64,000 nucleotides of DNA. Source: Luteolibacter sp. Y139. Lineage in GTDB: Bacteria > Verrucomicrobiota > Verrucomicrobiia > Verrucomicrobiales > Akkermansiaceae. This document shows positions 25,986 to 43,740 of this stretch, piece by piece. The translations under genes were made by a program, and so were the position numbers. The DNA lies in assembly GCF_038066715.1 (NCBI RefSeq), contig NZ_JBBUKT010000014.1, positions 62,001 to 126,000 on the forward strand, written 5' to 3'. The notes below the pieces were generated by a model. It saw nothing but the letters and a program-made list of their open reading frames with translations, did no database searches and was not told the DNA's origin. How positions within the stretch are numbered: the first letter of the stretch is position 1; each line of letters begins with the position of its first letter.

Positions 25986-26876
25986 TCAGCCCGTGCTCCC
26001 TCCCTGCTCGTCCTCCCCATCCGCGTTTTCAGCGATCGTTTCAGCTTCGATCTCGCGCTGGACCTTCGGCGACAGGAAAGGCCGCACCACCAGACCGTAA
26101 AGCAGGTAGGCACTGAACAGGACCGCAGGCATCACGTAGTGGAACCGGACAGTAATGATCAGCACCGCCACCGCTCCGACGATCACCAGCGGAGTACCGC
26201 GGGTGCGCCAGCCGACCTTCTTGAAGCTGGGATAGCGGACGCTGCTCACCATCAGGATCGAGATTCCCAGCATCGCACCCGCCAGCACATACTTCCAGGC
26301 ACCCAGATTTCGGTCCGTGTCGTTGAAGTAGATGACCAGGTAGGTCAGGGAAGAAATGAACCCCGCAGCCATCGGGATCGGCAGTCCGCGGAAATCTGTG
26401 CTCGCATTCGCCCGCTTCGGCATCGCCGCCAGGCAATTGAAACGCGCCAGCCGGATCGCACCGCAGAGCACGTAGATGCAGGCCAGCCCCCAGCCGACCC
26501 CCTCCAGCTTGAGGTGTTTGAAATCCTCATCGAGCGGGAACAGCACCGCCTTGGCCATGAGGATCGACGGGGCCATCCCGAAGGAAATCACGTCCGCCAG
26601 CGAATCGAACTCCCTCCCGAACGGCGACTCCTGACCCCCGAACCGGGCCAGGCGGCCATCCAACAGGTCGAAAATACACGAGGCGAAGATCAGCAGGATC
26701 GCCTGCTCGTAGTAGGGACGGGCGGAGTCGAAAACGTAGCCCTCCGGCGTCGTTGCGAGGAAAATGCCCTTGAAGATCGTCAGCACCGCGAAGAACCCGC
26801 ACGCGAGGTTGCCGGCGGTCATCAGGTTCGGCAGCAGGTAGATGCGCGGCTCGTCGGGCTCGATGGGACGGAACAT
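25986..26876 (-). CDS. pssA: CDP-diacylglycerol--serine O-phosphatidyltransferase
   Basis: A polytopic CDP-alcohol phosphatidyltransferase of 296 residues from ATG 26876; a TTG at 26897 would add seven. The family motif is complete: DLLDGRLARFGGQ...GREFDSLAD, fitting DGxxAR-x8-GxxxDxxxD. The early NLMTAGNLACGF and the length fit PssA rather than PgsA. It makes phosphatidylserine, the precursor of phosphatidylethanolamine, at the inner membrane. The C-terminus is an acidic, low-complexity tail. About 250 bp of AT-richer sequence without a gene separate it from lpxA. Confidence 0.88.
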   Translation of the reverse strand: MFRPIEPDEPRIYLLPNLMTAGNLACGFFAVLTIFKGIFLATTPEGYVFDSARPYYEQAILLIFASCIFDLLDGRLARFGGQESPFGREFDSLADVISFGMAPSILMAKAVLFPLDEDFKHLKLEGVGWGLACIYVLCGAIRLARFNCLAAMPKRANASTDFRGLPIPMAAGFISSLTYLVIYFNDTDRNLGAWKYVLAGAMLGISILMVSSVRYPSFKKVGWRTRGTPLVIVGAVAVLIITVRFHYVMPAVLFSAYLLYGLVVRPFLSPKVQREIEAETIAENADGEDEQGGSTG

Positions 26877-26950
26877 GTCGCCGGGAAGGTGGCCCAAAAG
26901 GATGCCTTGAAACAGTGGAAAATCCCGGGCGGCCAGTTAGGGTCCGCGCC

Positions 26951-28050: not shown

Positions 28051-29358
28051 TCACGCAAACACGTCCGCCACCGGCACGCCCTTGTCGGCGAACTTGAAGG
28101 GACGGCCCGAAGGCGACATCACCACGAGGTCGTGCGGCAGGCCCATCGCATTGGCGATGGTCGCATTGAAGTCCTGCACCATCACTGGCTTGTCCTTCAC
28201 GCGTTCGCCCTTTGGATCGGTCTCGCCGTGCTTGTAGCCGCCCTTCACGCCGCCACCCGCGAGCAGACAGGTGAACGCAGCCGGATGGTGATCGCGACCG
28301 TTCTGGTGCTCCGTCTTGATCGTCGGCGTGCGGCCGAATTCGGTCGCCACGACAACCAAGGTATCCTTGAGCATGCCCTTCGACTCGAGATCCTTCAGCA
28401 GGCCCGCGTAAGCTTGGTCGAACTCCTTGCAGCGACCTTCGACGGCCGCGAAGTTATCGAAGTGAGTGTCCCAGCCACCCAGCTGGACCTCCACGAACTT
28501 CACACCGTGCTCCACCAGGCGGCGGGCCAGCATGCAGCCCTGCGCAAAGCGGCCGTCACCATAAGTCGAGCGCACCGAGGCGGACTCGTCGTTGATGTTG
28601 AAAGCCTTCAGATCCTTGCTGTTCATCAGCTTGATCGCTTCCTGATAGAGCTCCTCGTAGGACTTCACATCGGCATTCTGATACTTGCCGTGGAACTGCT
28701 TGTTAAGCCGGTCGGCCAGCGACAGGCGCCGCTCGAAGTCTTCCTTCGAAACCTCGCCCGGCTTCTTCGAATCCTGCAGGCCTTCCGTCGGGCTGCCGAT
28801 CGGAGCGGCGGCAAACTTCGCGCCGAAGAATCCACCACCGGACGTATCCGCGGACGAGTCGATCGCCACGAATCCGGGGATCTCGGGATTCGTGCGGCCA
28901 CCGAGCTTCATCACCCACGCACCGAGCGATGGATGCTTCACCGTGCCACGCATTTCATAGCTGGTGTGCATGATGTAGGTGCCCTGCTCGTGGGCACCTT
29001 GGCGGGACGTCATCGAGTTGATCACGCAGACCTTGTCCATGACCTCGGCGGTCTTGGGCAGGTTCTTGCCGACGAAGATGTCGCTGGCCTTGGTCGGGAT
29101 GGCTTCCATCGGCCCCATCACCTCCTTCTTCTTCGGCTTGGGGTCGAAGGTGTCGATGTGGCTCATGCCACCGGACATGTAGAGGTAGATCACAGCCTTG
29201 GCCTTTGCCTTCACGGCTTCGGTGGCTGCGGCAGGAGCCGCCGCTGCGGCGCTGTTGAAGAAGGGCATCAGCTGCACCCCGAGGTACATCTTCGCGGCAT
29301 TCGTGATGAAGCTGCGGCGGGTCGGCTCGTCGAAACGGTTGAAATCGCGGGCGTTCAT
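28051..29358 (-). CDS. DUF1501 family protein (Tat-exported)
   Basis: The 435-residue product belongs to DUF1501, a branch related to the alkaline phosphatase/sulfatase superfamily. A Tat-like leader (TRRSFITNAAKMYLG) is present. Conserved landmarks are MSGGMSHIDTFDPKP near residue 65, GGWDTHFDN, and EFGRTPT ... GRDHHP near the C-terminus. It starts 24 bp after the DUF1549/DUF1553 partner at 29382-31289, a pairing seen throughout Planctomycetota and Verrucomicrobiota. The biochemical role of the pair is not established; degradation of complex sulfated or carbohydrate substrates is often proposed from context. Confidence 0.9.
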   Translation of the reverse strand: MNARDFNRFDEPTRRSFITNAAKMYLGVQLMPFFNSAAAAAPAAATEAVKAKAKAVIYLYMSGGMSHIDTFDPKPKKKEVMGPMEAIPTKASDIFVGKNLPKTAEVMDKVCVINSMTSRQGAHEQGTYIMHTSYEMRGTVKHPSLGAWVMKLGGRTNPEIPGFVAIDSSADTSGGGFFGAKFAAAPIGSPTEGLQDSKKPGEVSKEDFERRLSLADRLNKQFHGKYQNADVKSYEELYQEAIKLMNSKDLKAFNINDESASVRSTYGDGRFAQGCMLARRLVEHGVKFVEVQLGGWDTHFDNFAAVEGRCKEFDQAYAGLLKDLESKGMLKDTLVVVATEFGRTPTIKTEHQNGRDHHPAAFTCLLAGGGVKGGYKHGETDPKGERVKDKPVMVQDFNATIANAMGLPHDLVVMSPSGRPFKFADKGVPVADVFA

Positions 29359-29381
29359 GGATTTTTCGAGGGTGAGAGGGT

Positions 29382-31289
29382 TTATTGGAGGAAAAGGAAC
29401 TCGGAGGACATCACCAGCGCCGAGACGATGTTGCGGTAGCCGTTCTGGCCGGACTTTTTCACCTCGTCTTGCATCCAGCCCATCTCCTCGGAGGTCGGCG
29501 GACGATTGAGGATGGTGATGTAGAGACGGCGGATCTTCTCCTCGTCGCTGCCCGCGCCTTCGAGACTCTTGTAAAGGTGCGCACCGGAGTTGTTGACCAA
29601 CTGCTCCTGCACGTAGCCGTTCATCAGCGAGAGCACCTGGCCCACGTTCGGCTCACGGCTTGCGCCTTCGACAACGATGCGGTCGGACTGACCGAAGAGG
29701 TAGAGCAGGTGGTTGCGGGGAGCGGGGCTGGGCAGCTCGGAAGCGCGGACCTGGGCCTTGCTGTCATAGGTCTGCACCTTGGCCATCATGCCCATGCTAT
29801 CGCCACCACCACCGCCGCCGCCCTTCTTCACTTCTTCGAGCAGCTTGTCGAAGTAGGAGCGCACCGCGGCTTCGGAATCGAGGGCCAGCACCTCCTTGGA
29901 CACCTGCACCATGTTCTTCTTGCCGACCAGCACCGGCTTGCGGCCGACATAGATCCGGTCGTCCAGGCTGCGGCGCGGCTTCTTGTCCGGATCGCCGGAG
30001 GCCAGCGTGATCAGCGAGTCCCACAGCTGCTCTGCCGACAGGCGGGAAAGCTGGCGACCATGGAAGTCATCACCGGTAGCCACCTTCGCCGGCTCCGGAT
30101 TCGGCACGAATTGGAAGGTCTTGGTATTCAGCAGCACCTTCTGGAAAGCCCGCAGGTCATAGTTGAGCTCGCCCATCAGCGAGATCAGCGTGGCCATCAG
30201 CTCCGGGTTGTGGAGTTCCTTGGTCGCCTTGTATTCGTCGACCGGCTCATACACCCCGCGGCCCATCACATGCTTCCACATGCGGTTCGCTGCGACGGAT
30301 GCGAACTGCTCTCCCGTCTTGTTCGTGACCCACTCGGCGAGCATCTCACGGCCGCCGCCCTTGTCGTTCTTCTCGGAAATGCGGACGCCCTTGCCGAACG
30401 GAGTCTTCGCACCGATCAACTGGCCCGGCTGGCCATCGCGATACTGGTAGTCTTCGGGCAGCTTGATCTTGCCCTCGCCGGTACCGCCGAGGCTGAGCCC
30501 GTAGACGCGATCCCACATGACCTGCGCCACGTCGTAATCCGTCGAGCGGCGCTTTTCGCCATCGTTGATCTCATCCCACAGACCCTTCATCAGGTCCTGC
30601 TTCTCTCCACCCTGACCTTGGGTGAAGGCCGCCAGTTCGAAGAAATCGTGCCGCTCGGTGGTGCCGAAGGGATCATCGTGGCACTGCGCACACTCCATCC
30701 GGGAGCCGAGGAAAACCCGCATCGAGTTCGCCAGGTTGTCGAGCGGCATGCCGCGGTCACGGGTGTAGTAGCCGACCGCCGCCGTCTCCGGATCCCAGCC
30801 GTCACCCTTCGCAGAGAGCAGCTTGTGGGTGAATTCGTTCCACGGCATGTTGTTCTCCATCGCCGTGCGTACCCAGTAGCGATACGGCTCGAAGCTGCCG
30901 TTGAAGCCCGGCTTGTCATCCGTCACCCGCAACAGGTCGAAGACCCAGTTGGTCATGTTGCTCGCGTAGCCCGGCGACTTCATCAGGTAGTCGATGAGCT
31001 GGACGCGTTTGTTCGCGTCGTCGATTTCCAGGAAAAAGCGGGCCTCCTCGACCGTCGGGATGCGCCCGATGGCGACCAGGAAGGCACGGCGCAGGAATGT
31101 GGAGTCATCCGTCACCGCCGGCACCTCCAGCTTCTCCTTCCGGTACCAGGCCGCCACCGTGGCGTCGATGGATCGGGCGGCTTTGGCGATGAAGACAGGA
31201 TCGTCCGCGGGAGCTGGCTTCTCCGCAGCGCGGACAAAGGGCAGCACCACCAGCCAACAGGCGAGGGAACCGAAAAGGCGAGATTTCAT
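29382..31289 (-). CDS. DUF1549/DUF1553 domain protein
   Basis: The product is 635 residues from ATG 31289 with a signal peptide (SRLFGSLACWLVVLPFVRA). The DUF1549 part covers ~40-260 and contains the haem-type motif CAQCHDDPF. DUF1553 follows (~330-600) with SAEQLWDSL and the Gly-rich low-complexity patch GGGGGGDS. Unlike the longer homologue at 40777 it lacks the N-terminal PSCyt1 cytochrome domain. It is exported and probably binds one c-type haem. It is co-transcribed with the downstream DUF1501 gene and divergent from the lipo-NRPS. Confidence 0.9.
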   Translation of the reverse strand: MKSRLFGSLACWLVVLPFVRAAEKPAPADDPVFIAKAARSIDATVAAWYRKEKLEVPAVTDDSTFLRRAFLVAIGRIPTVEEARFFLEIDDANKRVQLIDYLMKSPGYASNMTNWVFDLLRVTDDKPGFNGSFEPYRYWVRTAMENNMPWNEFTHKLLSAKGDGWDPETAAVGYYTRDRGMPLDNLANSMRVFLGSRMECAQCHDDPFGTTERHDFFELAAFTQGQGGEKQDLMKGLWDEINDGEKRRSTDYDVAQVMWDRVYGLSLGGTGEGKIKLPEDYQYRDGQPGQLIGAKTPFGKGVRISEKNDKGGGREMLAEWVTNKTGEQFASVAANRMWKHVMGRGVYEPVDEYKATKELHNPELMATLISLMGELNYDLRAFQKVLLNTKTFQFVPNPEPAKVATGDDFHGRQLSRLSAEQLWDSLITLASGDPDKKPRRSLDDRIYVGRKPVLVGKKNMVQVSKEVLALDSEAAVRSYFDKLLEEVKKGGGGGGGDSMGMMAKVQTYDSKAQVRASELPSPAPRNHLLYLFGQSDRIVVEGASREPNVGQVLSLMNGYVQEQLVNNSGAHLYKSLEGAGSDEEKIRRLYITILNRPPTSEEMGWMQDEVKKSGQNGYRNIVSALVMSSEFLFLQ

Positions 31290-31334
31290 GGGTTTCGAGG
31301 TTTTGACAAAGCTAGACGTTCGACTTGGGGTCGT

Positions 31335-31374
31335 CAATTGGACGCCAAGGCATGCAATTCAACGCCAAGGCAGG
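31335..31374. repeat. Tandem 20-bp direct repeat in the DUF1549/NRPS divergent region
   Basis: Two abutting 20-mers, CAATTGGACGCCAAGGCATG (31335-31354) and CAATTCAACGCCAAGGCAGG (31355-31374), differ at 3 positions. They lie 46 bp upstream of the DUF1549 start in a 338-bp divergent intergenic region that holds no gene. A tandem operator for a dimeric regulator is a reasonable reading. The rest of the region is AT-richer near 31400-31450 (promoter-like) without a motif I can name. Confidence 0.5.
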
Positions 31375-31627: not shown

Positions 31628-34600
31628 ATGACCACCAGAGCACTCACCCTGGACCGTCCAATCGTCGGCCCGCTTCCCGCGGTGCTGGACCAGAGGGCTG
31701 CTGCCGATGCCGGGCGGCTGGCCTTCCGGTTTCTCGTGGACGGAGAGGAAAACGAGCGCCTGCTCCACTACGGCGAACTGCTGCGGCAGGCGCGGATCCA
31801 AGCCGCGAATCTGGTCGAGGCCGGCGCCTCCGGAAAGCCGGTGCTGTTGATGCACTCGCCCGGTCTGGATTTCATCATCGGCCTTTTCGCCTGCTGGTAC
31901 GCCGGGGCGATCGCAGTGCCGGCCTACCCACCGAGCGGGAATCGCCACCGGCAACGGCTCGAGGCAATCCTCCGGGATTCCGGCGCGGCCCTCGCCATCG
32001 GGGAAACACCCGCCAAGCCCATCCCCGGGGTCAGGGTCCTGACTTGGGAAGAACTCTCCACCGGCCAGCCCTTCGCCGGAGATGCCCCTTATGGGGAAGT
32101 CCCCTGCCTGATCCAATACACCTCCGGCTCCACGGCGAAGCCGAAGGGCGTGGTGCTTCATCATCGTCATCTCCGGCAACACCTCGCTGCACTCGGCAAT
32201 ACCGTCCGTGGCCTGGGCATCCGCTCCATGCTGAGCTGGCTGCCGCCCTACCATGACATGGGGCTCATCCTGAAGATCCTCTTCTCCTTCGACTCGGGAG
32301 TCCCGCTCACCTTCTTCTCGCCCGATCACTTCGTGCAGCGCCCGGTCCGCTGGCTGCGCGCGATCAGCCGCTACCGCGCCGAATTCAGCGGCGGCCCGAA
32401 TTTCGCCTTCGATCTCTGCCTGCGCTCGATCCGCGACGAGGAACTCGCCGGCCTCGATCTCTCCTGCTGGACCGCCGCGCCCACCGGCGCCGAGCGGATC
32501 CGCATCGATACCCTCCAGCGCTTCACCCGCCGCTTTGCGCCCTACGGCTTCCGGCCGGAGACCTTCCTGCCCGGCTACGGCTTGGCCGAGTCCACCCTCA
32601 TCGTCACCGCCTGTCGCTCGGGGAAATTCCAGAGCATCTCCCATCATCCCGAAGCCGGCCAGCATGTCTCCTGCGGACCGGTGATCGATGGCCTGTCAGT
32701 GCGCATCGCGGATCCTGCCACCGGACAAACCCTGCCGCCCGGAAAGATCGGCGAGATCCGCGTCAAAGGCACCAGCGTCGCCGCGGGCTACTGGAACCAC
32801 CCGGAGGAAAGCGCCAGGATCTTCGGAGCCGAGGGCGAGCTGCACACCGGCGACCGCGGCTATCTCGAAAACGGCGAACTCCACGTGGTCGGCCGCATCA
32901 AGGATCTGATCATCCTCGGCGGCACCAATGTGGCCCCGGAGGATGTCGAGGCCGCCCTGGCCAGTGCCTTCCCGCAGTTCGCCGCCGCCGCTGCCTTCGC
33001 GGGCGATACTCCCACCGGTGAAGGGTTGATACTGGCGATCGAATCGCCACGCCTTCCAGAGAAGGAGCTGGCCGAACTTGCCACCGCCATCCGCCGCAGC
33101 ATTGCCGATTCCCTGGAATTGCCCATCCATCGCATCGTCTTCGTTCGCACCGGCACCCTGCCCCGCACCACCAGCGGGAAGCTCCAGCGCTCCGCCGCAC
33201 GCGAGGCCTACCAGCAGCGAAAGCTCATCGTCACCTTCGACGAAGCCGCCCTCTCGCCCGCGATTCCGCCGGGCGGCAAGTGGCTGGATGCAGTGCTGGA
33301 TGCCGTGCGCGAAGTCTCCGGCCGCGATGGCGTGACTGCGGAGGACGACCTGATCGCCTTCGGCCTTAGTTCCATTGAGGCTACCCGCTTGGCCGCCCTC
33401 CTGCGAGCCACTACCGGTGTCGAAGTCTCCCTTGCAGAACTCTTCTCAGCGACTTCCTTCGGCCATCTCGCCAGCAGCTTTGAAGGCAGGACCGGCACTC
33501 CGCTGCCCGAGATCGTTCCCGGCTCGGGACGTGACAGCGGCCTCCTCACCCACTCGCAGGAGCGCATGGGCTTCCTCCATCAGTTGGAGCCGGAAAGCGC
33601 CGCCTATCATGTCTTCGGTGCCCTGGAGTTGGAGGGGCCGCTCGACTCCCTCGCGCTCGAGCGCGCCTACACCACCCTGCTTTCCCGCCACAGCATCCTG
33701 CGCAGCCGTCACCGGATGAATGACGGCCGCCTCACGGTGCGCCTCGACGATAGCCCACCGCCGCCCATCGAGCGCAGCAGCGGCCCGCGTGAAGAAGTCC
33801 TACACGCCTTCGCCTTGCGGCCATTCGATCTCGCGAATGAATCACCCATCCGCGCGCTGCTGATCGATTGTGGAAAGAACCATCACATCTTCGCGCTGTG
33901 TGCCCATCACATCGTCGCTGACGGCTGGTCGGTGCGCCTGCTCGTCCGCGACCTCGCCGCCTACTACGATGCCTTCACCGGCGGCACCCAGGCCCCGTCA
34001 CCACTGGCTGGACCGGACTACCTCGACTACGCGGCATGGCATCGCCGCTGGATCGAAGACGGTGCCGCCGATGCCGCGACCCTCTACTGGAAGCGCCGTC
34101 TAACAGGTCACTCCGGCGTGATGGAACTCGCCACCGATTTCCCGCGACCGGCCAAGCCCTCGTCACTCGGTGGTGCCGTGGAGCGTACCGTGCCAGCCGG
34201 CCTCGTCGAACGCGTCACCGCTTTCGCCAAGTCCCGCCGCGTCACGCCCTTCATGGTCCAGCTCGCGGCCTTCCTGCTGCTGCTGCGACGCCACGGCGGC
34301 GATGATGATCCAGTGATCGCCGTGCCGGTCGCCAATCGTAACCACGCCGCCGCCGCTGACCTCGTCGGAACCCTCGTCAATACCCTGCCCTTCCGGCTCA
34401 CGCTCGATCCGTCGGAGACGTTCCTCTCGTTGTTAAACCGCGTCCGCGATGCCGCCTTCGAAATGCAGGGCGCACAGGATGCCCCCTTCGAGCGCATCAT
34501 CGAGGCCATTCGCCCCGAGCGCGCCCGCGATCGCACCCCGCTCGCCCAGGTGATGTTCGATCACCAGGAAATCCCGATCGCCGAAACCTGGCACGGCGGC

Positions 34601-37435
34601 CTCCGCTGCCGTCCCTACCTCGCCCATCGCGGCGCGGTGCAGTTCGATCTCAGCCTGCTCTACTTCGTGCTCTCGGACCGCCAGCAAGTGGTGCTCGAAT
34701 ATCGCGACGATCTCTTCAAGAGGGAAACGGCGGACGCGATGCTCGACCGCTATCTCGCGACGCTCGGTGCCGTCTGCCGCGAAGCCTCACGGCCCATCCA
34801 CGCCATCGACGGTCTATCGGAAAATGACCTCCTCCACCTGCTCTCGGCAGGTCAGGGAGCCGCGCGCCCAGGGTTCCCGAAGCAAACCACTCCCGCGCTC
34901 ATCGCCGCGACTTGCAACCGTCTCGCAAAACAAACCGCCCTCGTCTGCGGCGAGGAATCGCTCGACTACGCCACCCTCGATTCGAGCGCTGCGTCCTTGG
35001 CTGCATCGCTGCAGCGAAAGGGCATCAAGCCCGGTGATCGCATCGCCATTTTGTTAGAGCGCGATCTCCTGCTGCCGGTCGCTTTGCTGGCCGCCTGGAA
35101 ATGCGGGGCCGCCTACGTTCCGCTGGACTCCGCCAATCCACCCGAGCGTCTCGCGCTGGTGCTGGAGGACCAGGCCCCGCTCCACGTCCTCGTTTCCCCA
35201 TCGCTCGTCGATCGCCTGCCGCCAAATACGACATCTATCGTACTTGATCCCGCCATGCTTGCGGGCACGAGCCTTCCCGAGCCAGTCCCGGTAAATCCGC
35301 AGGACGCCGCCTACATCCTTTACACCTCCGGCTCCACCGGAAAGCCAAAGGGCGTGATCGTTTCCCACGGCGCGCTGGCGAATTTCCTCCTCTCGATGCA
35401 GGAGGAACCGGGCTTCAGCCAAGGCCAGCGCCTGCTCGCCGTGACCACCGTGTCCTTCGACATCTCGGCGCTGGAAATCTTCCTGCCTCTCGTCGCCGGC
35501 GGCACCGTGGACCTCGTCCCCGGTTGCGTCGCCCGCGATCCCGCCGCACTCCTTTCACGACTCGAAGCGACCACGCCGGACGTGATGCAGGCCACACCCG
35601 CCACTTGGCGCATGCTGATCGACGCGGGCTGGCACGGCTCGCCCGGCATGAAGATCCTCTGCGGTGGCGAGGCCATGGACCTGCCGCTCGCCCGCAAGCT
35701 GCTCCCGCTCGGCCGCGAACTCTGGAACCTCTACGGCCCCACCGAGACCACCGTGTGGTCCACCATCTGGCGCGTGCCGGACAATCCCGAGCGCATCCTG
35801 ATCGGCCACCCCATCGCCAATACCGGCATCCACATCGCCGGAAACGATGGCTCCCCGCTCCCTCCCGGCATCCCCGGCGAATTGCTTATTTCCGGCGCGG
35901 GCTTGGCCGACGGCTACTGGCAACACCCCGACCTAACAGCTGAACGCTTCGTCCCGACTCCTTCCGTCGAGATGCCCCGGATCTATCGCACCGGCGATCT
36001 CGCCCGCTGGCACGCCGATGGCTCGCTCGAATGCCTCGGGCGCTCCGATGGCCAAATCAAGATCCGTGGCTTCCGCGTGGAGCTTGGCGAAATCGATGCC
36101 GCCCTGCTCTCCCATCTCGGCATCGCTGAGGCCGCCACCGTGCTCAAGGATGAGCGCCTCGTCGCATGGTATCGCCCCACCGTTCCCGGGCTGCCCGCTT
36201 CCGAAATCACCGCGCACCTCCGCGCACGACTTCCGGACTACATGATTCCGGCACCGCTGGTCGCCATCGATCACATGCCTCTGACAGCAAGCGGCAAGAT
36301 TGATCGCAAGGCCCTCGCCGCGCGCCCGCTGCCCGAAGCCTCCATTGAAAATCCAGTCGCAACGAACGCCGGTGACCCGCTGGTAACCGAACTCTGCCAG
36401 ATCTGGGCCGGAGCCTTGGGAAGCCGGAACGTCCAACCCGACGACGACTTCTTCGCACTCGGCGGACACTCGCTCGTCGCGGCACGCCTCGTCACGGAAG
36501 CTACCCAACGCACCGGCATCACGGTCTCGCTCGATTGGTTGTTCGATCGCCCAACGCCCGCCGGCATGGCCGCGCAAATCCGCGAGAAAGCCGCGCCTGA
36601 CCTGGCGGAACCGCGGGTGCTACCGCTGGCCCGCGGCCAAGGCGGCACCCCGCTCTTCTGGTGCCACACCCTGGTCGATGGCGGCATGGGACTCCTGCCC
36701 TATCGCGAGACGGCACAGTTGTTAGGCGACGTCACCGACTCGCACGGCATCGCCGAAGGGGCGCATGGCTTCGACACGCTGGCCGCCATGGCCACCGCCC
36801 ACGTCGCGAAGATCCGCGCCGCCCAGCCACGCGGACCTTACAAAATCGCCGGCTTCTGCTTCGGCGGAAATCTCGCCGCGGAAATCGCCTCCCAGCTCGC
36901 AGACGCGGGCGAGGAAATCGAGCTGCTCTGCCTGCTGGAGGCTGCTCCGCCTCACCCCGCTTCCCATCACAATCCTTGGCTTCACCTCGCCACTTGGCAG
37001 CGCATTCTCTCGCGCCTTCCCGGCCGCGTGAAGAGCTTCATGAAGCGGGACGCTGAAGCCGTGCTTCGCCGCTTGAAAATGAAGCAACGCGCCGCCGCCT
37101 CCGAAATGACACGGCTCTCGCGCAAGGACGGCATCCCGGACATCCGCGGCATTCTCGATCTCGATGTCCTCGACCCGGAATCCCAAGAGCGAGCCACCCT
37201 TCATTGGGAAGCCCTCCACAAGCACCAGTCGCGTCTGCCCCGGGCCAAGCGCATCGTGCTGATCCGTGCCGATGACGATGGCTGGCTGCCACGCCCGCCC
37301 ACGCTCGGCTGGTCGGCACCCTGCGAAATCGAAGTCCACACCGTGCCCGGCCGCCACGAGGAATTCCTGCGCCGCCGCTCCGCCAAGGAAGTGGCCGACG
37401 TGATGAGGCAGGTGCTCTTTCCCCAGAAGGCCTAA
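31628..37435 (+). CDS. Lipo-NRPS: FAAL-ACP-C-A-PCP-TE, predicted glycine-activating, with cysteine thioesterase
   Basis: The 1935-residue cytoplasmic megasynthase has a fatty acyl-AMP ligase (1-~550; QYTSGSTAKPKGVVLHH, WLPPYHDMGL, SGGPNFAFDLC) and an acyl carrier domain with Ser582. A condensation domain (~640-1065; HHIVADG from His760) and an adenylation domain (~1075-1580; YTSGSTGKPKG, YGPTETT, KIRGFRVELGEID) follow. Last are a carrier domain with Ser1615 (LGGHSL) and a thioesterase (~1665-1935). Aligned by eye to GrsA, the A-domain pocket reads D-I-L-Q-L-G-L-V-W-K, close to glycine codes. The thioesterase nucleophile motif is GFCFGG, with Cys1744 in place of Ser. Loading of a fatty acid and condensation with one amino acid is predicted. 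No phosphopantetheinyl transferase or tailoring genes lie nearby. Confidence 0.92.
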   Translation: MTTRALTLDRPIVGPLPAVLDQRAAADAGRLAFRFLVDGEENERLLHYGELLRQARIQAANLVEAGASGKPVLLMHSPGLDFIIGLFACWYAGAIAVPAYPPSGNRHRQRLEAILRDSGAALAIGETPAKPIPGVRVLTWEELSTGQPFAGDAPYGEVPCLIQYTSGSTAKPKGVVLHHRHLRQHLAALGNTVRGLGIRSMLSWLPPYHDMGLILKILFSFDSGVPLTFFSPDHFVQRPVRWLRAISRYRAEFSGGPNFAFDLCLRSIRDEELAGLDLSCWTAAPTGAERIRIDTLQRFTRRFAPYGFRPETFLPGYGLAESTLIVTACRSGKFQSISHHPEAGQHVSCGPVIDGLSVRIADPATGQTLPPGKIGEIRVKGTSVAAGYWNHPEESARIFGAEGELHTGDRGYLENGELHVVGRIKDLIILGGTNVAPEDVEAALASAFPQFAAAAAFAGDTPTGEGLILAIESPRLPEKELAELATAIRRSIADSLELPIHRIVFVRTGTLPRTTSGKLQRSAAREAYQQRKLIVTFDEAALSPAIPPGGKWLDAVLDAVREVSGRDGVTAEDDLIAFGLSSIEATRLAALLRATTGVEVSLAELFSATSFGHLASSFEGRTGTPLPEIVPGSGRDSGLLTHSQERMGFLHQLEPESAAYHVFGALELEGPLDSLALERAYTTLLSRHSILRSRHRMNDGRLTVRLDDSPPPPIERSSGPREEVLHAFALRPFDLANESPIRALLIDCGKNHHIFALCAHHIVADGWSVRLLVRDLAAYYDAFTGGTQAPSPLAGPDYLDYAAWHRRWIEDGAADAATLYWKRRLTGHSGVMELATDFPRPAKPSSLGGAVERTVPAGLVERVTAFAKSRRVTPFMVQLAAFLLLLRRHGGDDDPVIAVPVANRNHAAAADLVGTLVNTLPFRLTLDPSETFLSLLNRVRDAAFEMQGAQDAPFERIIEAIRPERARDRTPLAQVMFDHQEIPIAETWHGGLRCRPYLAHRGAVQFDLSLLYFVLSDRQQVVLEYRDDLFKRETADAMLDRYLATLGAVCREASRPIHAIDGLSENDLLHLLSAGQGAARPGFPKQTTPALIAATCNRLAKQTALVCGEESLDYATLDSSAASLAASLQRKGIKPGDRIAILLERDLLLPVALLAAWKCGAAYVPLDSANPPERLALVLEDQAPLHVLVSPSLVDRLPPNTTSIVLDPAMLAGTSLPEPVPVNPQDAAYILYTSGSTGKPKGVIVSHGALANFLLSMQEEPGFSQGQRLLAVTTVSFDISALEIFLPLVAGGTVDLVPGCVARDPAALLSRLEATTPDVMQATPATWRMLIDAGWHGSPGMKILCGGEAMDLPLARKLLPLGRELWNLYGPTETTVWSTIWRVPDNPERILIGHPIANTGIHIAGNDGSPLPPGIPGELLISGAGLADGYWQHPDLTAERFVPTPSVEMPRIYRTGDLARWHADGSLECLGRSDGQIKIRGFRVELGEIDAALLSHLGIAEAATVLKDERLVAWYRPTVPGLPASEITAHLRARLPDYMIPAPLVAIDHMPLTASGKIDRKALAARPLPEASIENPVATNAGDPLVTELCQIWAGALGSRNVQPDDDFFALGGHSLVAARLVTEATQRTGITVSLDWLFDRPTPAGMAAQIREKAAPDLAEPRVLPLARGQGGTPLFWCHTLVDGGMGLLPYRETAQLLGDVTDSHGIAEGAHGFDTLAAMATAHVAKIRAAQPRGPYKIAGFCFGGNLAAEIASQLADAGEEIELLCLLEAAPPHPASHHNPWLHLATWQRILSRLPGRVKSFMKRDAEAVLRRLKMKQRAAASEMTRLSRKDGIPDIRGILDLDVLDPESQERATLHWEALHKHQSRLPRAKRIVLIRADDDGWLPRPPTLGWSAPCEIEVHTVPGRHEEFLRRRSAKEVADVMRQVLFPQKA

Positions 37436-39319: not shown

Positions 39320-40774
39320 TCACGCAATAATCTCGTGAATCGGATCCGCCCCCTCCACCCCCACGAGCTTCTGATCCAGCCCCCCATAGAAGTAGGTCAG
39401 GTGATTCGGATCGAGCCCCATCTGCTTGAGCACCGTGGCGTGTAAATTCTTCACCTGCACCCGGTCCTTCACTGCCTCCCCACCGAGCTCATCGGTCTCA
39501 CCAAAGGTCGTGCCACCCTTGATCCCACCACCGGCCATCCACGTCGTGAAGCCATACGCATTGTGATCGCGCCCCGTCCCCTCGGCATACTCCGCCGTCG
39601 GCTGACGACCGAATTCACCACCCCAAATAATCAGCGTCTCATCCAACAGACCGCGCTGCTTCAAATCCTGAATCAAACCCGCAATCGGCTTGTCCGTATT
39701 CCCCGCATGGAACTCGTGGTTCTTCACGAGATCCCCATGGGCATCCCAGTTGTCGTCATTATGAGCCCCACCGGAGTAAATCTGGATGAAACGAGTACCA
39801 CGCTCCACGAGCCGCCGCGCCAAAATGCACTTCCTCGCAAAGTCATCCGTCCGGCTGCCATCCATCCCATAGAGCTTCTTGATGTGCTCCGGCTCGCTCT
39901 CCACGTCGATCGCCTCCGGCGCAGTCGCCTGCATCCGATACGCGAGCTCATACGAAGCAATCCGCGCGGACAGGTCGCTATTATGCTCGCGCCCCTTCAT
40001 GTGGCCGCGGTTGATATCGCCCAGAAAATCCAGCAGCGAACGCTGCTGCACCCGATCCATCCCGGGCCGGTTCTCCAAATTCAAAATCGGATTCCCCTGC
40101 GAACGAAATACCACACCCTGATAGCTCGCCGGCATGTAGCCACTGCTCCAATTCTTCGCACCGGAGATCGGCCCACCGGTCTTGTCCAGCATCACCACGT
40201 ACCCAGGCAGATTCTCATTGAGCGAGCCGAGACCATAGTTGACCCACGATCCGAGCGAAGGCTTACCGCTGAGCAACGAGCCGCTGTTCATCATCAGCAT
40301 CGCCGAGCCATGGATCGGCGAATCCGCAGTCATCGAGTGGATGAAAGCAATGTCATCAACACAGCCGCCGATGTTAGGAAACAGCTCCGAGACCCACTTC
40401 CCCGATTGGCCATACTGGCGAAACTGCCACTTCGGCCCCACCACGCGCCCTTCGTTCTTCTTGCCACCGCGGCCGAAGGTCTTGATCGGCACCGTCTTGC
40501 CATCCAGCGGATACATCTTCGGCTTGTAGTCGAAGGTATCCATGTGGCTCGGCCCGCCATACATGAAGAGAAAGATCACCGACTTCGCCTTCGCCGGCAG
40601 CTGCGGCTGCTTCGGAGCCAGCGGATTGTCATAACCCGCTTCGCTCGCGAACACCCCATCGCGCGACATCATGCCAGCCAACGCCAGCGAAGTGAATCCG
40701 CCACCGATCTGGTGAAGGAATTCACGGCGATGAACGCGGCCGCAAAAGTTGCCGGTGGGTGGACGCAGGATCAT
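39320..40774 (-). CDS. DUF1501 family protein (Tat-exported)
   Basis: A second DUF1501 paralogue, 484 residues, with a twin-arginine leader (HRREFLHQIGGGFTSLALAG). It carries FMYGGPSHMDTFDYKP, HNDDNWDAHGD, and WGGEFGRQPTAEYAEGTGRDHN. It follows the PSCyt1/DUF1549/DUF1553 gene with a 2-bp gap, so the two are translationally linked. It is more similar to the planctomycete form paired with large cytochrome-type partners than to the shorter copy at 28051. The exact reaction is unknown. Confidence 0.91.
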   Translation of the reverse strand: MILRPPTGNFCGRVHRREFLHQIGGGFTSLALAGMMSRDGVFASEAGYDNPLAPKQPQLPAKAKSVIFLFMYGGPSHMDTFDYKPKMYPLDGKTVPIKTFGRGGKKNEGRVVGPKWQFRQYGQSGKWVSELFPNIGGCVDDIAFIHSMTADSPIHGSAMLMMNSGSLLSGKPSLGSWVNYGLGSLNENLPGYVVMLDKTGGPISGAKNWSSGYMPASYQGVVFRSQGNPILNLENRPGMDRVQQRSLLDFLGDINRGHMKGREHNSDLSARIASYELAYRMQATAPEAIDVESEPEHIKKLYGMDGSRTDDFARKCILARRLVERGTRFIQIYSGGAHNDDNWDAHGDLVKNHEFHAGNTDKPIAGLIQDLKQRGLLDETLIIWGGEFGRQPTAEYAEGTGRDHNAYGFTTWMAGGGIKGGTTFGETDELGGEAVKDRVQVKNLHATVLKQMGLDPNHLTYFYGGLDQKLVGVEGADPIHEIIA

Positions 40775-40776
40775 GG

Positions 40777-43740
40777 CTAGTCGAGATAGAAGAATTCGTT
40801 GAAGCTGAAGACCGCCACCGCGAAGCGTTGCAGCGCCACTTCAGGCGTGAGCTTGCTCTCGGTCTTGAGCTTGTTGATGAAGGCCAGCGAGCGAACGACC
40901 TCGCTCTCATCCGGCTCGCGCGAAATCACCAGTTCGAAAGCCCGCTTCACCTGCGCCTGCAAATCCCCCGGATGCTCACGCTCAAGCCGACTCGCCAGCC
41001 GGGAGGCTTCGTCGTGAATGAACTCGCTGTTCATCATCGCCAGCGCCTGGGTCGGCACCGTGGTGGTAAAGCGCACCGGGCAAGAGTTGTCCGTATCCGC
41101 GAGGTCAAAGTCCGTGAACAGCGGCGGCAACAGCGAGCGCTTGATCTTCACGTAAATGCTCCGGCGATCCGCCTGATCCGGCGGACTCACGCCCCACTTG
41201 CCGCCCTTCGTCGAGGACGTGGCCAGCACCTCCTCGGGAATCGTCACGAACACACTCGGGCCGCTCATTTCCAAGTTCAGCTCACCCGTGCTGAGCAGGA
41301 TCGAGTCGCGCAATTCCTCGGCACCCAGCCGCCGCGGATTGAAGCGCCAGAAAAGATCGTTGGCGGGATCCGCCGCCGCGTCCTTCGGGTCGGACGAAAT
41401 CGAAAGCCGGTACGTCTTCGAGTTCAGCAGCAGCCGATGCATCGCCTTCACGCTCCAGCCCTTCGCAACAAACTCCGTCGCCAACCAATCGAGCAACTCG
41501 GGATGCGTCGCCTCCGTCCCGAGATAACCAAAGTCATTCGGCGTCGGACAGATGCCCCGGCCGAAATGATGCTCCCAGATCCGGTTCACCATCACCCGCG
41601 CCGTGCGCGGATTATCGGGACGGGTCATCCAGTTCGCGAGCGCGAGACGGCGACCGCTCGTCTTGGCATCAGCCGCCGGCGGAGACACCGAGGCCACCTC
41701 GCCACCCCAGATCGCAGGAAAGCCGGGCTGCACCTCATCGCCCTCGGCATGGGCACTGCCACGCAGCAGCACGTGCGTCGGCGGCGGCACCGGACCACTT
41801 TCCGTGATCACCATCGCCTCAACGCCTGGCGACTTCTTCAGCATCTCGATCTCTTCAAGCCGAGCCTGTCCCCGCCGGTAAAGCTCGCGGTCCTTGCGGC
41901 TCACCGCGCGATAGTCGCGATTCATCACCAGGTCGGACGGCGTGATCGCATCCACCTCCAGCCCCAGATCAAAGAACTGCCCACCGGCCGTCTGGTGAAC
42001 GTGCACGGCCAGCACGTTGCGCCCGGTCTGCAGCGCCGCCATGAACTCGCGCGATGCGGTGATGCGCTCGTAGTCGCTCACATGATGCTCGCGCTGCAGC
42101 ACCGGCTGGCCGTTCAGGAAAATCTCGATATCCTCGTCGTGATAAAGGTGCAGCAGCACCGACTTCGGAATCGCTTGCAGCCCGAAGGTCGTCTGAAGCC
42201 AGATGTCCGCGCTCGTCCACACGGTCTTGGCCTGCACACCCGGCGCCGCCGTGCCGAAGCCAGCGGCTCCCTGCTGCCAATTCGCGCGCTCGGCGCGGAA
42301 ACTAACAGCCGACCAATCCTCAGCCGGCTTGGTGGTCGTATAGAACCAGGTCGTCGGACGCATCCGCGCATCGGTCACCAGCCAGCGATCCGGCGGCGCC
42401 ATATTGTCCACTCGTCCCGCAACCTCGGGATTGGTGCGACGCACATTGACCAGCGCGTTTTCCTCGGAACGCGCCATCCCTTCCCGGATCCGCTTCTCCT
42501 CGGCACCGAGCTCAGCGAGTTGGTGGTCACGATTCTCAACCAGTTCGGGAGACTGGATATACTGCGTCTGCTTGCCCCCCTTCCCCATCGGCTCGATGCC
42601 GCGGAAGAAAGAGACGAACTTGTAATAATCCTTCTGCGGAATCGGGTCGCCCTTGTGATCATGGCAACGCGCACAACCCGCGGTCATGCCAAGAAATCCC
42701 TCGGTAACGGTGCGGACATTGTCATCCAGCACATCGAAGAAATGCTGCGGAGGATCCGCCGGATCATCGTCCCACGCCATCAGCCGCATCATGCCGGTCG
42801 CGATCTGCGAGTCGGCCGTCTTGTCGGGAAGCTCATCACCGGCAATCTGCTCGGCCACGAAGCGGTTGTAAGGCTTGTCCTGGTTGAAGGCGCGGATCAC
42901 GTAGTCGCGATAGCGCCACACATACGGCTTGTCGTTGTCGCGCTCGAAGCCGTTCGACTCCGCATAGCGCACCACATCCAGCCAATGCCGCGCCCACTTC
43001 TCGCCATACTGCGGCGTATCGAGCAGGCGATCCACCTGCTTGCTCCACGCATCCGGCGAATTGTCCGCTTCAAAGGCCCGGATCTCTTCCAACGACGGCG
43101 GCAACCCCGTCAGATCGTACGATAAACGTCGTAGCAATGCCGCCTTGGATGCCTCGCCCACCGGCTTCAGCCCCTTCTCATCCAGCTTCGCCAGGATGAA
43201 AGCATCCACCGGATTCACCGCCCATGCGGGATCGGAAACCTTCGGCGGCTCATGCCGCTCCATCGGCCGGTAGGACCAGTGCGTCTTGGTCTTCTCATTG
43301 ACCTCGGTCACGCCCGCGAGCGGATCGTGCACTTCCACCAGCACGTCGGCATCCTCCGGCGTCCACGGTGCCCCCATCTCCAGCCATCGGGCGATCTTCG
43401 CCTGATCGCCGTCATCCAGCTTGCCGCGCGGCGGCATCTGCAGGTCCTCGTTCTTGTATGAGAGCGCCTCCAGAATCAGGCTCTTCGCCGGCTCAGCCTC
43501 GTTGAAGACCGCCCCGAGCGCGCCCCCCTTCATCAGCCCCTTGCGGCTGATGAGCTGCAGGCCTCCTCGCACCTTCGGATGTCCCTTCTCATCGAGGCCG
43601 CCGTGGCACTTGAAGCAATTCTGCTCCAGGATCGGCTTCACCTCGTTGCGAAAGTACTCCACGCCCTCCGTCTCGGCCGCTCCCGACCGGGATGCAGCGA
43701 GACCCAGAGCAGAGAGACCGATGACCAGGGGTCGAATCAT
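40777..43740 (-). CDS. PSCyt1-DUF1549-DUF1553 exported cytochrome-type protein
   Basis: The 987-residue product has a signal peptide followed by a PSCyt1 domain with the haem motif CFKCHGG near residue 42. DUF1549 comes next (~140-350), with a second motif CARCHDHK near residue 360. A carbohydrate-binding-like beta domain (~490-620; VLLHLYHDEDIEIFLNGQP) precedes DUF1553 (~690-970). It is periplasmic or surface-located and probably binds two c-type haems. Its start overlaps the IclR gene stop by 4 bp and the DUF1501 gene follows 2 bp after its stop, giving a three-gene operon led by a regulator. Confidence 0.92.
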   Translation of the reverse strand: MIRPLVIGLSALGLAASRSGAAETEGVEYFRNEVKPILEQNCFKCHGGLDEKGHPKVRGGLQLISRKGLMKGGALGAVFNEAEPAKSLILEALSYKNEDLQMPPRGKLDDGDQAKIARWLEMGAPWTPEDADVLVEVHDPLAGVTEVNEKTKTHWSYRPMERHEPPKVSDPAWAVNPVDAFILAKLDEKGLKPVGEASKAALLRRLSYDLTGLPPSLEEIRAFEADNSPDAWSKQVDRLLDTPQYGEKWARHWLDVVRYAESNGFERDNDKPYVWRYRDYVIRAFNQDKPYNRFVAEQIAGDELPDKTADSQIATGMMRLMAWDDDPADPPQHFFDVLDDNVRTVTEGFLGMTAGCARCHDHKGDPIPQKDYYKFVSFFRGIEPMGKGGKQTQYIQSPELVENRDHQLAELGAEEKRIREGMARSEENALVNVRRTNPEVAGRVDNMAPPDRWLVTDARMRPTTWFYTTTKPAEDWSAVSFRAERANWQQGAAGFGTAAPGVQAKTVWTSADIWLQTTFGLQAIPKSVLLHLYHDEDIEIFLNGQPVLQREHHVSDYERITASREFMAALQTGRNVLAVHVHQTAGGQFFDLGLEVDAITPSDLVMNRDYRAVSRKDRELYRRGQARLEEIEMLKKSPGVEAMVITESGPVPPPTHVLLRGSAHAEGDEVQPGFPAIWGGEVASVSPPAADAKTSGRRLALANWMTRPDNPRTARVMVNRIWEHHFGRGICPTPNDFGYLGTEATHPELLDWLATEFVAKGWSVKAMHRLLLNSKTYRLSISSDPKDAAADPANDLFWRFNPRRLGAEELRDSILLSTGELNLEMSGPSVFVTIPEEVLATSSTKGGKWGVSPPDQADRRSIYVKIKRSLLPPLFTDFDLADTDNSCPVRFTTTVPTQALAMMNSEFIHDEASRLASRLEREHPGDLQAQVKRAFELVISREPDESEVVRSLAFINKLKTESKLTPEVALQRFAVAVFSFNEFFYLD

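Follow-up and report, generated by a model that had tools for sequence, protein, structure and literature searches.

A stand-alone FAAL-NRPS with a cysteine thioesterase in Luteolibacter sp. Y139, a candidate acyl-glycine synthetase

Gene, domain order and neighborhood

We analyzed a 64,000-nucleotide stretch of DNA (the window; G000:C14:62001-126000) from the 7.1 Mb genome of Luteolibacter sp. Y139. An open reading frame that starts from ATG on the forward strand (31628..37435, +) encodes a protein of 1935 aa (P0001), in which Pfam reported, above cut-offs, two matches each to AMP-binding and PP-binding and one each to Condensation, AMP-binding_C and Thioesterase. The domain order is FAAL-ACP-C-A-PCP-TE, exactly as claimed in a preliminary description of the same DNA. 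An MbtH-like domain was not reported by Pfam in this protein.

Using the TE region as a query, we found 43 full-length proteins of 1888-1971 aa, including the window's own (P0001 to P0043; E-values up to 3e-71), and the next TE-region match after these 43 family members appeared only at 4e-19. The eight of the 43 that are named all belong to Luteolibacter or Haloferula. The gene was present in 10 of 17 genomes of the same genus and absent from the other 7; in two of the 10 (G005 and G010) it is in pieces, and these two were excluded when TE residues were counted in the ortholog set. The best 120 of 4353 passing proteins comprised the 43 proteins above (the TE+ set), 51 proteins shorter than 1700 aa (the TE-less set) and a further 26 of greater length, which were left out. 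Among 386 genomes of the order, 14 matched the TE-less member P0074 at E ≤ 1e-220, a count that takes TE+ proteins, TE-less proteins and a distant relative in genome G128 together. The G128 relative (L144, 4465-12136) is split over two overlapping ORFs of 1495 and 513 aa, has a Cys TE and is followed downstream by an ABC transporter gene. In the open-licence PMC literature, we found neither this protein nor any Verrucomicrobia FAAL-NRPS described.

The first AMP-binding domain (residues about 16-533; 31673..33226, +) is FAAL-like (fatty acyl-AMP ligase): its nearest solved structures include FadD23, FadD32, FadD28 and a fatty acyl-adenylate ligase by name among the first 15 matches, and Lys173 and Lys518 are found in 43/43 proteins. 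The leading PDB matches 7r7e-g and 3kxw, together with chains named acyl-CoA synthase, are presumably FAALs as well. The domain scored below the cut-offs of the curated NCBIfam FAAL subfamilies (377 bits versus 775 for NF004509 and 361 versus 600 for NF006624). The ACP that follows (residues about 550-625; 33275..33502, +) contains Ser582 (GLSS) as the proposed pantetheine site, and the PCP (residues 1588-1650; 36389..36577, +) contains Ser1615; each serine is conserved in all 43 TE+ and all 51 TE-less proteins. The condensation domain (PF00668, residues 639-1066; 33542..34825, +) carries HHxxxDG at 760-766, with His761 and Asp765 kept in 43/43 and 51/51.

We also examined the ten neighboring ORFs using Pfam. 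Nine matched a family (T2SSE, CDP-alcohol phosphatidyltransferase, DUF1501 twice, PSCyt2/PSD1 twice, GH77, IclR and ThiC) and one had no match; none of the ten looks like a lipopeptide gene for tailoring, transport or a further synthetase, in line with the earlier statement that the locus has no tailoring genes. Two pairs of DUF1501 and PSCyt2/PSD1 genes (window 28051-31337 and 39320-43740) flank the NRPS gene and the GH77 gene. The CDP-alcohol phosphatidyltransferase, a lipid-type enzyme (window 25986-26897), lies about 4.7 kb away and is common only to the closest ortholog locus, L036.

The neighborhoods of the TE+ orthologs vary. A PSCyt2/PSD1 gene is common to the window and L036-L040 (about 5 kb away in L039), a DUF1501 gene is common to the window, L036, L037, L038 and L040, and L037 has further ORFs in common with L039 and with L040; none of the window's neighbors is present in L041-L046, for which some stretches are short. 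No neighbor is kept across all TE+ ortholog loci within about 7 kb or less on each side. The possibility of a conserved tailoring or transport partner was considered for the same stretches and rejected, an ABC transporter gene being found only beside the split gene of G128. A PPTase match was found neither in the window nor in the nine TE+ neighborhoods tested; two PPTase-family genes are present elsewhere in the source genome.

Thioesterase residues and adenylation code

The type I thioesterase domain (residues about 1665-1930; 36620..37417, +) combines a PF00975 profile match with an alpha/beta-hydrolase fold. We compared its structure model (mean pLDDT 88.8) with known folds using Foldseek, and the first match was AB3403 of Acinetobacter baumannii, with NocB and the EntF TE also among the nearest folds. 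Neither ObiF nor SulM, two TEs that form strained rings, is among the 50 structure-comparison matches listed. Cys1744 (GFCFGG; 36857..36859, +) follows a strand (model residues 84-89) and precedes a helix (91-105), aligns with the nucleophile elbow of the NocB, EntF and AB3403 TEs (phmmer) and is Cys in 43/43 proteins; these results bear out the earlier placement of this residue at the nucleophile position. His1910 (37355..37357, +), the triad histidine, is likewise found in all 43, as are the PCP and ACP serines and the HHxxxDG residues of the C domain.

Two positions could supply the acid of the triad. At position I, after beta-6, Glu1771 (36938..36940, +) aligns with an Asp of AB3403, and an acid is found in 43/43 proteins (Glu in 42 and Asp in one, P0028). 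At position II, after beta-7, Asp1883 (37274..37276, +) is conserved but replaceable: it is Asp in 39/43 and His, Ala, Glu or Asn in P0023, P0037, P0040 and P0043, and it is absent from the G128 relative too. Both acids are invariant across the first nine orthologs, in which the position-II Asp as the sole acid was attractive; the 43-protein set and G128 argue against it, and position I is therefore the better candidate. A role for the position-II Asp may remain, because it is kept in 39/43 proteins and in all of the first nine orthologs. We propose a Cys-Glu-His triad with the acid at position I, as suggested by conservation. Among the TEs compared, Glu as the triad acid occurred only in this FAAL-NRPS family. 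The TEs also keep an HW-x-x-LH-x-H segment before the beta-7 strand, which is common to the distant G128 protein.

A cysteine at the nucleophile position is not confined to this family. Among the next 18 TE matches (P0044-P0061), which were found by words in common with the query and whose Cys share is accordingly biased, 6 were Cys and 12 Ser by eye; a script count on the same 18 gave 5 Cys, 11 Ser and 2 without the motif (P0046, which reads Cys, and P0057, which reads Ser). Two further proteins of about 2000 aa, with an identical order of Pfam domains, use Ser with Asp at position I: one from Terracidiphilus gabretensis (L112, 8845-14862; GHSFGG, code DILQLGMIWK) and one from a gammaproteobacterial MAG (L049, 8974-14964; GFSIGG, code DILQLGMVWK). 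They are two among 46 loci examined of at least 80 from a contig scan with generic NRPS patterns, which yielded mostly other NRPSs, L050 being G128 again. Given these matches and the two Ser proteins, Cys is not very rare, nor does the architecture require it. Passages of PMC6668435 describe the Cys nucleophile of ObiF as favoring ring closure and its C1146S variant as mainly hydrolyzing, and part of PMC11934086 reports that the RufT TE S105C still mainly hydrolyzes. These outcomes indicate that the nucleophile alone does not decide between hydrolysis and other modes of release.

The adenylation domain (Pfam, residues 1095-1557; 34910..36298, +) has the glycine-type code DILQLGLVWK. The family alignment and the AB3403 residues confirmed this pocket, which had been read by eye in the preliminary description. 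In the TE+ set (n = 43), the codes were DILQLGLVWK (29), DILQLGMIWK (5), DILQLGMVWK (5), DILQLGLIWK (3) and DILQFGLVWK (1), and in the TE-less set (n = 51) they were DILQLGLVWK (38), DILQLGLIWK (7), DILQLGMVWK (5) and DILQLGHVWK (1). The textbook assignment of DILQLGLIWK is glycine; the code strings had no match in the open-licence PMC literature. LgrA module 2, which we take to be a glycine module, has other residues at several positions of the aligned pocket; glycine can accordingly be specified by more than one code. The code of AB3403, DILQLGVVWK by eye reading of the 4zxh residues, is identical at 9/10 positions. According to passages of PMC5376624 (citing Drake 2016), the AB3403 crystal (4ZXI) held glycine and AMP, and glycine was the best among 20 amino acids tested. 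By analogy with AB3403, the predicted specificity of the A domain for glycine is well supported; the glycine-like reading of the code, which extends to the 43 TE+ and 51 TE-less proteins, stands.

Proteins lacking the thioesterase

The TE-less sister set consists of at least 51 proteins of 1625-1682 aa with the same glycine-type code. They form one branch (SH-aLRT 100) nested within the TE+ proteins, the outgroup falling outside, in a quick tree that carries SH-aLRT support only, has long outgroup branches with five outgroup rows and places G128 in no group. Because of this nesting, the simplest reading, subject to the quick tree and its long outgroup branches, is that the TE is ancestral and was lost once.

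We inspected the TE-less loci of three genomes, G363 (L141), G296 (L142) and G029 (L045), in each of which the TE-less FAAL-ACP-C-A-PCP gene lies downstream of one for a full-length relative (55-63% identity) of a C-A-PCP-TE protein encoded on contig C13 of the source genome, and a PPTase gene then comes after the TE-less gene. In G029, one ORF stands between the two synthetase genes, and the TE-less protein has a single PP-binding stretch by Pfam. The ORF calls for these loci use the first possible start codon, and the exact gaps are accordingly unsure. Pfam gave no Thioesterase match in the three TE-less proteins, and a TE-region search found no TE remnant at the three loci outside the neighboring C-A-PCP-TE gene. 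The line in the source genome (C13:76499-91237; L145, L146) encodes an A-PCP protein (605 aa), a KS-containing protein of 2972 aa and the C-A-PCP-TE protein (1342 aa, Ser TE). A gene for a secreted-looking protein comes after this line.

Probable product and comparison with known systems

On balance, the protein is best explained as a self-contained acyl-glycine synthetase that most probably releases free N-acylglycine, a reading that we favor with modest confidence; the domain order, catalytic residues and code are those read in the sequence, and the reaction would be as follows. The FAAL would convert a free fatty acid to acyl-AMP and load the acyl group onto the ACP (the loading and chain length being presumptive), while the A domain would load glycine onto the PCP, as the likeness to AB3403 suggests. 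The C domain may then join the two into N-acylglycyl-S-PCP, from which the acylglycyl group would move to Cys1744, with His1910 as the putative base and Glu1771 as the putative acid in a triad of predicted geometry. Release would most probably be to water, giving free N-acylglycine. Hydrolysis is the simplest release because the gene stands alone, and the enzyme probably works alone, since no partner gene is kept beside it and the inspected TE-less sisters are the ones that adjoin the NRPS/PKS line. The earlier suggestion that a stand-alone enzyme may by itself define an N-acylglycine product is in this respect supported.

The main rival, which we regard as possible, is that the Cys TE passes the acylglycyl group to an amine, an alcohol or a lipid, giving an acylglycyl conjugate. 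All 43 TEs have Cys, the HW-x-x-LH-x-H segment lies outside the triad, is shared with G128 and could bind an acceptor, and Ac-505, the compound tied to the AB3403 operon, is presented in part of PMC5376624 as a conjugate and not a plain N-acylglycine, the reaction of the AB3403 TE being described there as uncharacterized. However, the relatives of the gene have no common neighbor that encodes an acceptor enzyme, a transferase or an exporter, G128 alone having an ABC transporter gene, and Cys in itself says little for transfer, because Cys TEs are not rare and two proteins of the same domain order use Ser. A bolder and more tentative version would take the Cys-Glu-His TEs, fixed across Luteolibacter and Haloferula, as a subfamily of acylglycyl transferases that make a novel conjugate, and the same loading module as having lost its TE once and been captured by the NRPS/PKS line. 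The location of the TE-less sisters close to the orthologous line in G363, G296 and G029 might suggest that the protein provides acyl-glycine in trans for the source genome's own C13 line, but this appears unlikely. The protein keeps its own TE, and the gene and the line are unlinked in both G000 and G221. Moreover, G001, G014 and G016 have the TE+ gene without a copy of the line's last NRPS at 51% identity or more, and G004, G011 and G012 have that NRPS without the FAAL gene, although this argument is weakened by 41% homologues of the NRPS in G014 and G016.

The preliminary description had likened the TE to the ring-forming Cys TEs of obafluorin (ObiF) and sulfazecin (SulM), which, according to passages of PMC11298585 and PMC6668435, have an Asp after beta-7 (position II) and act on a residue with a beta-nucleophile. 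The Luteolibacter family resembles them in its Cys nucleophile and in the usual presence of the position-II Asp (39/43). However, all 43 proteins have an acid at position I, where ObiF1 has Gly, the position-II Asp is lost in 4/43 and in G128, and the motif is Phe-Cys-Phe and not the Gln-Cys-Asn of SulM. The lack of an MbtH-like domain among the Pfam matches is a further difference from these systems. The terminal residue of ObiF and SulM bears a beta-hydroxyl or beta-sulfamate, whereas glycine, to which the code points, offers neither a beta-OH nor a beta-N. Formation of a strained beta-lactone or beta-lactam ring is unsupported on both triad position and substrate, and we reject it as the least probable of the readings. 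A five-membered ring could still be drawn from glycine, since closure of an N-acylglycyl thioester to an oxazolone is chemically possible. A 2-alkyl-oxazolone formed in this way would be a reactive acyl donor, and a Cys TE can favor ring closure, as passages of PMC6668435 describe for ObiF; we consider this product very improbable.

The preferred reading, a synthetase that releases free N-acylglycine, thus retains the glycine code, the nucleophilic Cys and the stand-alone gene of the preliminary description, and drops its ring-forming analogy; the closer relative, AB3403, had been missed. New in this analysis are the family-wide residue conservation, the link to AB3403, the position-I acid, the nested TE-less clade and the finding that Cys TEs are not rare. 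A one-gene, one-protein lipo-amino-acid pathway makes whole expression and a direct readout of the product possible, and the Luteolibacter product would hint at the role of the AB3403 Cys TE. The TE+ and TE-less sisters, which share the glycine code, provide a comparative pair for the loss of a release domain when a module joins an assembly line, and the combination of Cys, Glu and His in the triad lends itself to mutational tests.

Commendamide and the glycine lipids, which are made by the N-acyltransferases CbeA/GlsB, are products of the N-acylglycine type as well, whereas the route here is that of an NRPS. The OaaC fatty acid amide pathway is alike in joining an acyl-ACP and an amine by a condensation domain; OaaC is a free-standing C domain acting on small-molecule amines, and the abstract of PMC13142362 names no A-PCP-TE.

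The closest likeness is to AB3403 (A1S_0115; PDB 4ZXH, 4ZXI). The C-A-PCP-TE order is common to both proteins, phmmer aligned 4zxh over positions 12-1144 of a 1301-residue query, and both have a Cys TE with an acid at position I (phmmer; passages of PMC11298585), which is Asp in AB3403 and Glu in the Luteolibacter protein. As described in passages of PMC5376624, the AB3403 gene shares an operon with those for an acyl-AMP ligase and an ACP (A1S_0112, A1S_0114), along with acyl-CoA dehydrogenase and RND transporter genes. The ligase and ACP partners of AB3403 are separate proteins, whereas their counterparts are fused in cis in the Luteolibacter protein, and neither the dehydrogenase nor the RND transporter gene is found among the ten ORFs beside the Luteolibacter gene. 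On most of the features tested, the Luteolibacter protein belongs with the AB3403-type acyl-glycine NRPSs, of which it represents a variant fused into one chain and encoded alone.
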